Below are positions 2,942 through 13,511 of a DNA stretch of 64,000 nucleotides, piece by piece (positions within the stretch are counted from its first letter, which is position 1; each line of letters opens with the position of its first letter). Both the position numbers and the translations under genes were made by a program. The DNA is taken from NCBI GenBank assembly GCA_017538255.1, contig JAFYJD010000010.1:124001-188000 (forward strand). The letters run 5' to 3'. This DNA is from Clostridia bacterium (GTDB lineage Bacteria; Bacillota; Clostridia; Christensenellales; CAG-138). The notes under the pieces are model-generated. The model was not told the DNA's origin. It did no database searches and saw nothing but the letters and a program-made list of their open reading frames with translations.

Positions 2942-4102
2942 ATGAAAAAACGCGCGATAGTGATAGTGCTCGACAGCGTCGGTATCGGCGCGATGCCCGA
3001 TGCGGCGGAGTACGGCGACGAAGGCTCTCACACCCTCGGAAACATCAACGCCCGCAGACCTTTACACATTAAAAACCTCACCGCGCTCGGCATCGGAAAC
3101 ATTGCTTCGTCGCGCCTTGAGGCGGCACCAAAACCTCTCGCTGCATTCGGCAGGGCGGCGGAAAAAACGCACGCGAAGGACACCACGAGCGGGCATTGGG
3201 AGATGATGGGGCTCGTTATGGACACCCCGTTCAGGACCTACCCAAGCGGTTTCCCGCGCCGCGTTATGAACGCGTTTGAGATGCGCATCCATCGTGGCAC
3301 GCTCGCAAACCGCGTCGCCTCGGGCACCGTGATAATAAACGAACTCGGCGACGAGCATATGCGAACGGGAAAGCCGATAGTCTACACCTCGGCGGACAGC
3401 GTGTTCCAGATCGCCGCACACGAGGATGTGATCCCGCTTGAAAAACTCTATTCAATGTGCGAGACCGCAAGGGAGATACTCGTCGGCGACGATCTCGTCG
3501 GCAGGGTCATAGCCCGCCCGTTCGTCGGCGCAAACGGCGATTACAGGCGCACGGAGAACCGCAGGGACTATGCCGTCGCCCCGCTGGGCGAGACCGTGCT
3601 CGACGCGCTTTACTTAAAGGGGCTCGACACCGTTGCGATAGGCAAGATAGAGGATATCTTCGACCGTCGCGGCATAAGGACCGTCGACCATACCAAGAAC
3701 AACGCCGCCGGCATCGATTCGACGCTTGGGTTAATCCGCGAGGGCAGGGGAGATTTCATATTCACGAATCTTGTGGATTTCGATTCGCTCTACGGCCATC
3801 GAAACGACGTCGAGGGCTATGCCGATGCGCTTGAGTATTTCGACGAACGTCTTGCGGAGATGCTCGCCGCGCTAAAAGAAGGCGACCTGTTGATCATAAC
3901 AGCCGATCACGGCTGCGACCCGACGACGGCGAGCACCGACCATTCGCGCGAGTACATACCCGTTCTCGCGTACGGCGCGGGCGTAAAAAGCGCCGATCTC
4001 GGTACGCTCGATTCGTTTGCCGATATCGGCGCAACGGTCTATGAGTACCTGACCGGAGAGACATTTCCAACGGGCAGGTCGTTCCTTGACAGGCTGAAAT
4101 AA
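2942..4102 (+). CDS. deoB: Phosphopentomutase
   Basis: 386 residues. It interconverts ribose-1-phosphate and ribose-5-phosphate (and the deoxy forms), linking nucleoside phosphorolysis to the pentose phosphate pathway in the cytosol. The start at 2942 is chosen because MKKRAIVIVLDSVGIGAMPD matches the family N-terminus and GGAGGGCAG stands just before it. A longer frame into the upstream gene is possible but would add an atypical Lys-rich leader. Metal-binding features of the alkaline-phosphatase-fold mutases are visible: D12 in the VLDSVGIG motif, the catalytic-Thr region DTTSGHWE near residues 80-87, ITADHGCDP near 319-327 and STDHSREYIP near 331-340. It lies one base after the glycosyltransferase stop and is followed by a terminator hairpin. 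Confidence 0.95.
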   Translation: MKKRAIVIVLDSVGIGAMPDAAEYGDEGSHTLGNINARRPLHIKNLTALGIGNIASSRLEAAPKPLAAFGRAAEKTHAKDTTSGHWEMMGLVMDTPFRTYPSGFPRRVMNAFEMRIHRGTLANRVASGTVIINELGDEHMRTGKPIVYTSADSVFQIAAHEDVIPLEKLYSMCETAREILVGDDLVGRVIARPFVGANGDYRRTENRRDYAVAPLGETVLDALYLKGLDTVAIGKIEDIFDRRGIRTVDHTKNNAAGIDSTLGLIREGRGDFIFTNLVDFDSLYGHRNDVEGYADALEYFDERLAEMLAALKEGDLLIITADHGCDPTTASTDHSREYIPVLAYGAGVKSADLGTLDSFADIGATVYEYLTGETFPTGRSFLDRLK

Positions 4103-4130: not shown

Positions 4131-4163
4131 AGCCCCGCTTCCCGCACGGGAGGCGGGGCTTTT
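4131..4163 (+). terminator. Intrinsic terminator after deoB
   Basis: AGCCCCGC at 4131-4138 pairs with GCGGGGCT at 4153-4160. An inner CCCG/CGGG helix and a short T run follow. It separates deoB from the next transcription unit. Confidence 0.6.
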
Positions 4164-4279
4164 CGGTACGCCGAATGAGCAAGGCGGGCGGCGCTGCCGC
4201 AAAAAAACGCCGAAACTGCGCGAATAAAAGCGCGGGTGCGCGGAATATGCTTATTTGACAGACAGAAAGGGGTTATCGT

Positions 4280-5443
4280 ATGAAAAGGAACGCACAAATA
4301 CTTCTCTCGGCGGCGCTTGCCGCAATGCTCGTCTTCGCCGCGCTTTTGCCCGCGCTGCGGACGGAGGCGGCGGTTTCGATAAACAATTCCATAAACGCAA
4401 GGGCGTTTTTGCTCGTGGACGCGGCGTCCGGCGGCGCGGTCATCTCCGAAAACGCGGGTGAAAAACTGCCAGTCGCGGGGCTTTCGCGTCTCGGCGCGCT
4501 GCTTATGATATGCGAAAGTTTCGACAGAGGCGAGATCGCGCCCGATGAGGGCGTGTTCGTCAGCCGTGCGGCTTCGGAGGTAAAGGGCACGACGGCGTTT
4601 TTGCGCGAGGGCGAACAAATGCGCGCAAGGGATCTGCTTCTTGCGGCGGCGATGATAAACGCCGGGGACGCTACCTGCGCGCTTGCGGAACATATAGCGG
4701 GAGGGACGGAAACGGCGGTGGAGCGCATAAACGCGCGCCTTTCGGAACTCTGCGTCGACGCGAACTTTACCGATATCTGCGGCGAGGGCGCGAGCCTCTC
4801 CGCGATGGATCTTGCGGCGATCGGCGCGGCGCTCATAAAAAGCCCCACCTACCGTGAATACGGCTCTCGCTTTTACGAAAAAATAAGCCATTTCGGCGCG
4901 GGGGAAACGGAACTTGCCAACCCCAATAAACTCATCAGGCAGTATTCGGGCTGTTCGGGCGTGGGAACGGGCTCGTCAAAAACGGCGCTCTACTGCGGCG
5001 TGTTCGCAGCCAAGCGCGGCGATACCGAGTTCATCGCCGTCGTGCTCGGCGCACCTTCCGCAGCAGAAAGGTTCACGCTCGGGCGCGACCTAATGGATAA
5101 GGGCTTTTCTTCGTTCAGAACGGTGCGCGTCGGGACGGCGGGCGAAGAGTACGGAACGCTGCGCGTTCGCGGCTCGATAAAAGGCAGCGTAGCCGCCGTT
5201 TCAAAAAGCGATACCGCGCTTTTGATGCCCACGTCAAACAGCGCCTGCACATCGGAAACGGAACTCCCGGAATACCTCGAAGCGCCCGTGAAGGCGGGGG
5301 ACGAGATAGGCGCGCTGATAATCAGAAACGCCGAGGGCGAGATCGTCGCAAAAACGCCACTCGTCGCGGACGCGGACGCGGATCGAGCCTCGTTTATCGA
5401 CTGCGTCAAGTATGTGCTCGGCATTTTCGCAAGGCGCGAATAG
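4280..5443 (+). CDS. DacF-like D-Ala-D-Ala carboxypeptidase homologue with all catalytic motifs lost (pseudoenzyme)
   Basis: 387 residues with a signal peptide (about 1-30). Then comes a domain that aligns well by eye with DacA/DacF penicillin-binding proteins, followed by the C-terminal beta domain. Active members trim D-Ala from peptidoglycan stem peptides. Here each signature is changed: the SxxK tetrad (normally within ASTTK) reads AGLSR at 67-71, so both Ser and Lys are missing. The SxN motif reads NAG in INAGDAT near 131-137, and KTG reads GTG in GVGTGSS near 226-232. Flanking family residues are preserved, for example DAASG, ESFDRGEI, ALAEHIAGG and the VVLGAPS strand. It sits just upstream of the site-2 protease and scpAB, as dacF does in Clostridia. 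It is therefore probably a structural or binding protein; penicillin binding should be absent. Confidence 0.85.
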   Translation: MKRNAQILLSAALAAMLVFAALLPALRTEAAVSINNSINARAFLLVDAASGGAVISENAGEKLPVAGLSRLGALLMICESFDRGEIAPDEGVFVSRAASEVKGTTAFLREGEQMRARDLLLAAAMINAGDATCALAEHIAGGTETAVERINARLSELCVDANFTDICGEGASLSAMDLAAIGAALIKSPTYREYGSRFYEKISHFGAGETELANPNKLIRQYSGCSGVGTGSSKTALYCGVFAAKRGDTEFIAVVLGAPSAAERFTLGRDLMDKGFSSFRTVRVGTAGEEYGTLRVRGSIKGSVAAVSKSDTALLMPTSNSACTSETELPEYLEAPVKAGDEIGALIIRNAEGEIVAKTPLVADADADRASFIDCVKYVLGIFARRE

Positions 5444-5598: not shown

Positions 5599-6282
5599 AT
5601 GGGTTATCTGTCAAACATACTCGACCTTGTGAAATACATACCCGGCATCGTGATCGCATTCAGTTTCCACGAATGGGGGCACGCTTTCGCCGCCTATAAG
5701 ATGGGCGACCCGACCGCGCGCAACCTCGGCAGGATGACCCTCAATCCGCTCGCGCACATCGATCCTATCGGCTTTTTGATGATGGTCATCGCGGGCTTTG
5801 GCTGGGCAAAACCCGTTCCCGTAAACCCAAACAACTATCGCAATTACAAACTTGGTGAGATCGTCGTTTCCTTAGCGGGCGTTACGATGAACTTCATCCT
5901 TGCCGTCGTCGGAATGATCGCGCTTGCCGCGCTTTATAAGTTCGGAGTGCTCAAAAACTATACCCCGACAGGCTACGAATTCAGCGGCGGCATTTTGACC
6001 GCGATAGACCTTACGCTGGGCTTCATCTCGATCAACCTCGCGCTGATGGTCTTCAACCTGCTTCCTATCTACCCGCTCGACGGGTTCCATATCGCCGAGG
6101 TTACGCTTTCAAAGGTGCTCGGCGCGCGCGTGTTCCTGTTCCTTCGCAACTACGGTATGTACATCCTTATGGGCGTGCTGCTTCTTGGTAGGTTCGGAGT
6201 CCCGATAATCAGCCCGATCACGAACTGGATCTTCGACGGTCTTTTCAAGGTCGTTGCGTGGGCGTTCGCGCTGCCGATCTGA
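5599..6282 (+). CDS. Site-2 protease family membrane metalloprotease (M50, YwhC-like)
   Basis: 227 residues, almost entirely membrane-embedded. The zinc site is HEWGH at residues 24-28 in the first helix (HExxH). The second M50 motif is PIYPLDGFHI near 155-164, whose Asp in LDG is the third ligand. These small M50 proteases lack a PDZ domain. Their substrates in Clostridia are mostly unknown; members of the wider family cut membrane-anchored regulators. It has its own promoter and is followed 18 bases later by scpA, the common order in Clostridia. Confidence 0.9.
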   Translation: MGYLSNILDLVKYIPGIVIAFSFHEWGHAFAAYKMGDPTARNLGRMTLNPLAHIDPIGFLMMVIAGFGWAKPVPVNPNNYRNYKLGEIVVSLAGVTMNFILAVVGMIALAALYKFGVLKNYTPTGYEFSGGILTAIDLTLGFISINLALMVFNLLPIYPLDGFHIAEVTLSKVLGARVFLFLRNYGMYILMGVLLLGRFGVPIISPITNWIFDGLFKVVAWAFALPI

Positions 6283-6300: not shown

Positions 6301-7071
6301 TTGAACTTGGCATACAGCGTTCACATAAAACAGTTTGACGGCCCGCTCGATCTGTTGCTCCACCTTGTGGAAAAGGCCGAGGTCGATATAAAGGACATAT
6401 TCATATCCGAGATAACCACCGAGTTTCTCGAATACGTTAAGGCGCTCGACGAGCCCGACCCCGACCAGACCAGCGAGTTTTTGACAGTTGCGGCAACGCT
6501 CGTCTACGCCAAATCCCGTTCGCTGTTCCCACCCGAGCCCAAACAGGAGGGCGAGGAAGAGGAGGATCCGGCGGAACAGCTCGTCAGAAGACTGCGCGAG
6601 TACAAAGCCTTCAAAGAGGCTTCGGCAAATATGCGCACCCTCGCGTCGGACGCGGTTAAACTTCGCTCCAAACCCCCGGAGGAGTTCCCGCTCCCGCCAA
6701 AGGAGATAATAATAAAGGACACCACGGTCGAAAGGCTGTTCGAGGCGATGATCGCGGCGATCGCGCGTGTAAAGAAGCCCGAAAAGGCGCCGTCCGTACA
6801 CGCCGTAAAAAGGGACAGTTTTACCGTACGCAACTGCGCGAGAAAGATACGCGACCGGCTCAAAACCAACAACGGCAGAACGACCTTCGACGCGCTTATC
6901 GAGGGCGCGGGAAGGATGGAGATAATCGTTACCTTTATGTCCCTGCTCGAGATGATCTCGGGCGGCGAGATAAGGGTGGAGCAAAAACGCTACTGCGGCG
7001 AGATCGAGATATTCGAGCAAAAACTCGTCAGGGACGACGAAACCTTGAACTATATGGACGAACAGGACTGA
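6301..7071 (+). CDS. scpA: Segregation and condensation protein A (kleisin)
   Basis: 256 residues from a TTG start; a second in-frame TTG at 6307 is possible, and AAAGGCGG just upstream suits either. ScpA is the kleisin that bridges SMC heads and recruits ScpB for chromosome organisation. The N-terminus has the family signature FDGPLDLLLHLVEKAEVDI. An acidic linker lies near 83-92, and the C-terminal winged helix spans about 190-245. It is followed by scpB after 4 bases, so the pair is co-translated. Confidence 0.95.
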   Translation: MNLAYSVHIKQFDGPLDLLLHLVEKAEVDIKDIFISEITTEFLEYVKALDEPDPDQTSEFLTVAATLVYAKSRSLFPPEPKQEGEEEEDPAEQLVRRLREYKAFKEASANMRTLASDAVKLRSKPPEEFPLPPKEIIIKDTTVERLFEAMIAAIARVKKPEKAPSVHAVKRDSFTVRNCARKIRDRLKTNNGRTTFDALIEGAGRMEIIVTFMSLLEMISGGEIRVEQKRYCGEIEIFEQKLVRDDETLNYMDEQD

Positions 7072-7075
7072 ACTT

Positions 7076-7624
7076 ATGGAAAAAAGCGAGATCATCGGCG
7101 CGATAGAGAGCCTTTTGTTTGTTTCGGGCGAGCCCGTCGGCTTTGCCGAGATAGAGCGCGTTTTTTCACTCACGAAGGATCAGGCAAGATCGATCGTGTG
7201 CGAGATGCGCGACACTATGCAGGCGCAAAAGCGCGGCGTGCTTCCGTTCATAACCGAGACCTCGGTCCAACTTGTAACGAATCCGTGCTACAACGAGCAT
7301 ATAATTATGCTCCTTTCCCCGCCGGAGGAGCGCGCGATAAGCGAGTCCGTACTGGAAACGCTCTCGGTCATCGCCTATCGCCAGCCAGTAACGAGAGCGG
7401 ATATCGAGGCGGTGCGCGGCGTCAGATGCGAGTACTCCGTATCTCAACTGCTCAAACAGGGGCTCATTATGGAACTCGGCCGCAAGGACACCGTCGGAAG
7501 ACCGATGCTCTTTGGTACGACGGACGCGTTTTTAAGAAAGTTCGGACTGCACTCGCTTGACGATCTTCCGCCGATACCGCAGGCGGATGATCCCGTCGTA
7601 GAGGGCGATATCCCCGTTGTTTAA
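7076..7624 (+). CDS. scpB: Segregation and condensation protein B
   Basis: 182 residues, the usual ScpB length. ScpB dimers bind ScpA within the SMC complex. Two winged-helix halves are visible. The first begins with IIGAIESLLFVSGEP; the second contains ETLSVIAYRQPVTRADIEA (about 100-118) and the characteristic LGRKDTVGRPMLFGTT (about 138-153). It ends near a perfect 12-base palindrome (7630-7641) that may belong to a weak terminator. Confidence 0.95.
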   Translation: MEKSEIIGAIESLLFVSGEPVGFAEIERVFSLTKDQARSIVCEMRDTMQAQKRGVLPFITETSVQLVTNPCYNEHIIMLLSPPEERAISESVLETLSVIAYRQPVTRADIEAVRGVRCEYSVSQLLKQGLIMELGRKDTVGRPMLFGTTDAFLRKFGLHSLDDLPPIPQADDPVVEGDIPVV

Positions 7625-13062: not shown

Positions 13063-13203
13063 ATGCAATTAGTTTTTATTAGGCCGCAAAATCGGTTTTT
13101 CCAAAAATTACATAACATACATTCGGCAAAAACGGACAAATTAAGGTCGCACGGCAGAAAACGGGCGGCAAAAAAGCCGCGGCGGTTTTGTCGGTAAAGA
13201 TAA

Positions 13204-13238
13204 CCCGCGCCCCGACAATAAACCTTTTGGGGCGCGGG
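13204..13238. repeat. Perfect 10-base inverted repeat in the SASP leader
   Basis: CCCGCGCCCC at 13204-13213 and GGGGCGCGGG at 13229-13238, with a 15-base loop. It is not followed by a T run on the plus strand, so it is not a standard terminator for that direction. It lies 61 bases before the SASP start and may be part of its 5' leader. The surrounding 13063-13298 region contains no gene that I recognise. Confidence 0.6.
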
Positions 13239-13298
13239 CAAAAGGAAAAGACGCTTTTGCGCCGGGTCCGAAAAACTATTATGAAAGGAGAAATCACG

Positions 13299-13511
13299 AT
13301 GAACAGCAACACTGGTTCAAGAGAAATGAAGCAGAAGCTCTCCGGTCTCAAGACCGAGGTAGCGTCCTCGATGAACATCAACCTTCAGCAGGGTTATAAC
13401 GGCGATATCAGCGCGCGCGATGCGGGCCGTATCGGCGGTCAGATGGTCAAAAGGATGATCGAATACGCCGCGAACAGCATGAACGGCGGTATGAACTCCA
13501 ATATGAGGTAA
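13299..13511 (+). CDS. Alpha/beta-type small acid-soluble spore protein (SASP)
   Basis: 70 residues from ATG 13299 with AAAGGAG nine bases upstream. SASPs coat and protect DNA in dormant spores and are cut by the Gpr protease at germination. The family core is visible: LKTEVASSMNINL (about 16-28) holds the Gpr-type cleavage region (Glu-Val-Ala), and ARDAGRIGGQMVKRMIEYA (about 39-57) matches the conserved DNA-binding helix with GGxMVKRM. The tail is Asn/Gly/Met-rich. Its presence shows that the organism forms endospores. Expression is expected from a sigma-G promoter, but I could not find a convincing one upstream. Confidence 0.93.
   Translation: MNSNTGSREMKQKLSGLKTEVASSMNINLQQGYNGDISARDAGRIGGQMVKRMIEYAANSMNGGMNSNMR

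Follow-up and report, generated by a model that had tools for sequence, protein, structure and literature searches.

Low-mass penicillin-binding proteins (PBPs) are generally regarded as enzymes, and the locus described here raises the question of what a member of this group may be doing once its catalytic residues are gone. The window, the whole stretch of 64,000 nucleotides that was analysed from a Clostridia bacterium, harbours at the position of dacF a gene, here called pseudo-dacF, which encodes an S11/PBP5_C protein without catalytic residues. The reading to which we give somewhat better than even credence is that a DacF orthologue was made a pseudoenzyme in the ancestor of the bacterial family to which this genome belongs and was kept by selection, and that its emptied pocket most likely accepts a stem peptide ending in D-Ala. 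A first-pass annotation had already described a pseudoenzyme kept for another role; the proposed link to sporulation, the ancient stepwise origin and the conserved, rebuilt pocket go beyond it. The features on which the argument is built are collected in Table 1.

Table 1. Features of the pseudo-dacF locus, in positions of the window.
Feature	Position	Strand	Basis or remark
deoB (phosphopentomutase-type metalloenzyme), conserved upstream neighbour	2945..4102	+	
Terminator-like hairpin in the deoB/pseudo-dacF gap	4140..4158	+	Scan count not above shuffles
GAATA-N16-GAATATGCT element, forespore-promoter-like	4222..4251	+	Partly conserved in genus (weak)
pseudo-dacF, 387-aa S11/PBP5_C protein without catalytic residues	4280..5443	+	
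Signal-peptide-like N-terminus MKRNAQILLSAALAAMLVFAALLPALRTEAA	4280..4372	+	Read from the translation, no dedicated predictor
Former SxxK, now G67-L-S-R70	4478..4489	+	Alignments; G67 in 51/51 of family
Former SxN-D, now N127-A-G129-D130	4658..4669	+	Alignments; G129 in 50/51, D130 in 51/51
Former KTG and next residue, now G229-T230-G231-S232	4964..4975	+	T230 and S232 in 51/51; 229 never Lys
R264, aligned with Arg of 5tr7/PBP6	5069..5071	+	51/51 in family
PBP5_C domain	5114..5380	+	Pfam
C-terminal amphipathic tail, probable membrane anchor	5387..5440	+	Hydrophobic moments of family tails
M50 site-2 protease, conserved downstream neighbour	5599..6282	+	
scpA, conserved downstream neighbour	6301..7071	+	
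scpB, conserved downstream neighbour	7076..7624	+	

The reading frame of pseudo-dacF opens with an ATG directly preceded by a Shine-Dalgarno-like stretch, AGAAAGGGG. Descent from the S11/DacF proteins is evident from the Pfam domains Peptidase_S11 (2.5e-34) and PBP5_C (9e-10), which span the full length of the product, in keeping with the good end-to-end alignment to DacF reported in the first-pass annotation, and the best solved relative is the DD-carboxypeptidase 5tr7 (97 bits, residues 38-366). Both the signal-like N-terminus and the amphipathic C-terminal tail are retained. The AlphaFold2 model, made from a two-row alignment, had a pLDDT of 34 and was unusable for pocket geometry. Pseudo-DacF also strongly matches the phage family phrog_5304 (peptidase, 198 bits), a match by which DacF-like proteins are seen to be present in phage-derived sequence sets as well.

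The gene order deoB - dacF - M50 - scpA - scpB is kept in the genus and in the family, and the site beside a site-2 protease and scpAB had been recognized correctly. In many genomes an intact DacB-type copy and rluB are found a few kb further downstream, while in the window's genome and in the congeners searched the DacB-type copy lies on another contig. Synteny, with deoB on the 5' side and M50-scpA-scpB on the 3' side, and the gene tree both set pseudo-dacF apart from the DacB-rluB paralogue; by virtue of this conserved and separate position the window gene is a DacF orthologue and not a DacB. Two further S11 proteins are encoded in the window's genome (1.76 Mb in 28 contigs, 96% complete), and both are motif-intact, which answers the earlier suggestion to look for an active relative elsewhere in the genome. 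One adjoins rluB and carries PMASTTK, SGN and KTG, and the other, of 627 aa, carries FPASTTK, SGN and KTG. Every DacB-type copy read on the rluB side in relatives was likewise intact.

In alignments to solved DD-carboxypeptidases and to the active paralogue encoded in the window's genome, PMASTTK pairs with PVAGLSR (S67=G, K70=R), SGN with N127-A-G129 and KTG with G229-T-G, and the original reading of the motifs of this DacF-position protein as AGLSR, NAGD and GTG was exact. None of the three signatures of an active S11 enzyme is found, as SxxK has become G67-L-S-R70, SxN has become N127-A-G129 and KTG has become G229-T-G. None of the 51 orthologues read from the window's family has the catalytic serine, the asparagine of SxN or the lysine of KTG, and because the loss is common to all of them it is more than a matter of chance. 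Gly occupies the serine position in every one of the 51; the asparagine position holds Gly in 50 and Ser in one, and the KTG lysine position is mostly Ala, Gly, Met, Leu, Ser or Phe, so that Ser67->Gly, Asn129->Gly and Lys229->non-Lys are changes of all or almost all family members. The position of the SxxK lysine (70) stays basic, R or K, in 44/46 non-redundant family sequences, and some family members keep the Ser of SxN.

The E. coli PBP5 mutant S44G, which carries the identical Ser-to-Gly change at the nucleophile, has no carboxypeptidase activity and does not bind penicillin (PMC2909392), and since the same change is fixed here, pseudo-DacF is almost certainly dead as a DD-carboxypeptidase. 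It would be unable to form an acyl-enzyme, and with that neither the trimming of D-Ala-D-Ala nor the trapping of beta-lactams should be possible. The two proteins differ in that S44G is a single engineered change by which function was lost, whereas the changes in pseudo-DacF are several, natural, ancient and fixed. The S44G mutant also lost its septal localisation (PMC2909392), for which reason one cannot count on a dead site to bind substrate.

Within the family alignment the old pocket is among the best-conserved regions of pseudo-DacF, but it carries new fixed residues. After removal of family sequences with >80% identity, leaving a mean pairwise identity of 37%, the mean entropy was 0.72 bits at the 13 former active-site positions versus 1.97 elsewhere (p=4e-5), and the former active-site positions hold 5 of the 16 invariant columns (p=1.4e-4). 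D130, T230 and G231 are retained in pseudo-DacF, and D130, T230 and R264 are invariant in the family; R264 aligns with the arginine equivalent to R248 of PBP5, which binds the substrate carboxylate. There is about an even chance that the old pocket binds peptidoglycan or a peptide ligand and is not part of a pure protein scaffold. If so, the emptied pocket (G67, G129 and T230-G-S232, with D130 and R264 kept) would take a D-Ala-ended stem peptide without cleaving it, and we tentatively propose, as a possibility rather less likely than not, that the emptied site acts as a non-catalytic receptor for such stems and controls forespore/cortex wall maturation in this pseudo-carboxypeptidase family.

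A scaffold in the strict sense, whose pocket would not bind peptidoglycan and which would work through protein contacts, for example with the DacB-type paralogue, a synthase or the M50 protease, appears rather unlikely, even though pseudoenzymes often work by pairing with active relatives and intact paralogues were present wherever they were looked for. Precedents are found in the CspC:CspA pseudoproteases of C. difficile spores (PMC12880746) and in PBP2B in the division of B. subtilis (PMC5656894). CspA and CspC are, like pseudo-DacF, natural pseudoenzymes kept in the spore programme of Clostridia, but they have an unrelated subtilisin-like fold and a known function in germination; PBP2B is a PBP whose structural role does not depend on its catalysis, but it is a high-mass division PBP with its natural active site intact. 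Against a scaffold stands the observation that conservation is highest in the cluster that makes up the old ligand pocket, R264 and T230 among it, and the partner is only hypothetical. More doubtful still is a new catalytic activity in a pocket rebuilt around, for example, the invariant S232, Y238 or H204 or the near-invariant C225. S232 and Y238 are indeed family-specific and invariant (51/51), and C225 is found in 50/51, yet H204 and C225 are conserved also in intact DacF copies and so were not newly recruited, and the changes run towards Gly, Ala and Ser with no obvious catalytic set.

Most of the 51 family orthologues were confirmed at the deoB-dacF-M50-scpA-scpB position, and their reading frames are intact. 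The dN/dS (Nei-Gojobori) was 0.05-0.32 in the closest pairs, with 0.12-0.13 for the pairs G067/G022 and G008/G007. The comparison with homologues proposed in the first-pass annotation gave the same losses in 10/10 congeners and in all other family members read, none of which had intact motifs. The catalytic residues are hence gone while purifying selection persists, as befits a pseudoenzyme, and there is very little doubt, judging from these substitution patterns, that pseudo-DacF has a maintained function. With losses throughout the family, purifying selection and intact paralogues elsewhere in the genome, the earlier view of a pseudoenzyme that is kept and not decaying is borne out. Ordinary pseudogene decay, recent decay included, and an assembly error in one genome, which would have been a concern with one assembly alone, are for all practical purposes ruled out by 51 independent assemblies with the same losses, intact frames and low dN/dS.

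Across the order the loss is graded. In other families of the window's order, the copies at the dacF position are mostly intact (49 read), and 10 show partial loss. The KTG lysine alone is lost in families f2 (Q) and f21 (A, two copies) and in one of two copies each in f15 (A) and f30 (A), while lysine and serine are both lost (residues at serine/lysine) in f15 (G/M), f25 (N/R), f22 (T/Q), f7 (G/G) and f30 (G/S). Sampling of the other orders of the class yielded 69 homologues, and all 69 were intact. When the motif columns were masked, the gene tree united the 61 lysine-less copies in a single clade that has no intact member (support 0.98) and includes members retaining SxxK and SxN, members without the serine, and the window's family with everything lost, the last as a single clade (support 1.0). 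Given this nesting of the window's family inside a single lysine-less clade, the most likely course of events is that the KTG lysine went first, that the serine followed on several occasions and that the window's family lost the SxN asparagine. A marker tree of SpoIVA agrees with the dacF tree for f1, f2, f15, f21 and f25; it is only partly congruent, however, since f30 and f7 fall outside the loss clade, with weak supports, and in one genome, G042, SpoIVA is present twice. The gene tree favours, but does not prove, that the lysine was lost only once, and given the placement of f30 and f7 there may have been one or a few losses. If the emptied site is indeed a receptor, the living intermediates in sister families, with the lysine lost and then the serine, would record the passage of a PBP from enzyme to binding protein. 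In one genus of f30 the loci L150 and L155 (genomes G199 and G209) differ, the serine being kept with ATG in one and replaced by Gly with STG in the other, possibly a recent step of inactivation.

SpoIVA is present in the window's genome, and genes for SASP and GPR are found in its genus. Among 52 genomes of the family that were >=90% complete, 40 had both the dacF-position gene and SpoIVA, 2 the gene only, 4 SpoIVA only and 6 neither (p=2.5e-4, kinship ignored). In the order as a whole (197 genomes, with presence called from an E-value list and three matches to f1 paralogues only removed by hand) the corresponding numbers were 155, 3, 13 and 26 (p=1e-19, kinship ignored). Both are absent in at least seven families (f1, f4, f5, f17, f21, f30 and f32), and gene presence follows SpoIVA whether the DacF copy is dead or alive, a phyletic coupling to sporulation genes in which kinship is again ignored. 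The dacF-position gene was not found in the SpoIVA-positive f1 relatives G014, G064, G020 and G034, and is consequently not universally needed. In C. difficile, dacF is under positive sigmaG control (PMC3789822) and the closest DacF homologue was scored as non-essential yet necessary for sporulation (PMC8417463). Supported by the co-occurrence, a role of pseudo-DacF in sporulation is probable. Upstream of the gene, a GAATA/GCATA-N16-(G/C)ATATGCT element is found in part of the genus, in 5/10 congeners examined versus 0.05 in shuffles; the strict pattern occurs in only 5/50 family members, all within the genus, and as a forespore promoter the element is suggestive only. The regions upstream of SASP and GPR in the genus gave no clean motif with which to compare it.

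Pseudo-DacF would then be exported while the spore forms, with its tail as membrane anchor, and, once bound to a stem peptide, it may serve to mark, shield or concentrate forespore or cortex peptidoglycan that is rich in pentapeptides. Alternatively, it may regulate a partner that is active, for instance the intact paralogue at the DacB position. It resembles DacF of Bacillus and Clostridioides, a low-mass PBP of Peptidase S11, in whole-length homology over S11 and PBP5_C, in the signal-like start, the tail anchor, the gene position after deoB and the link to sporulation, but differs in having lost all three catalytic motifs and is by the known mechanism no penicillin-binding enzyme. Within the literature searched, several wordings led to no inactive S11 or PBP pseudoenzyme, which does not prove that none has been described.

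A pseudoenzyme selected throughout a clade would imply a task for DacF in spore formation for which carboxypeptidase activity is not needed, and such a task would bear on the C. difficile DacF homologues scored as required for spores. The graded orthologues, intact, lysine-less, serine-less and fully rebuilt, offer a natural experiment by which the catalytic role may be split from the non-catalytic one. Annotation based on Pfam would label pseudo-dacF a carboxypeptidase and a beta-lactam target, which is impossible by the known mechanism.

Two minor observations concern the SASP genes. Several members of the genus have a long, conserved leader upstream of them (GGACAAATTAAG...CACGG..., then a GC-rich hairpin), at about 13134-13246 in the window and at loci L158, L159, L163, L164 and L166; it gave only weak, sub-threshold and not credible matches in Rfam, and no tRNA. 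At the SASP site itself, 13320-13481 of the window, a single gene is present, while most congeners have two in tandem (loci L157-L175).
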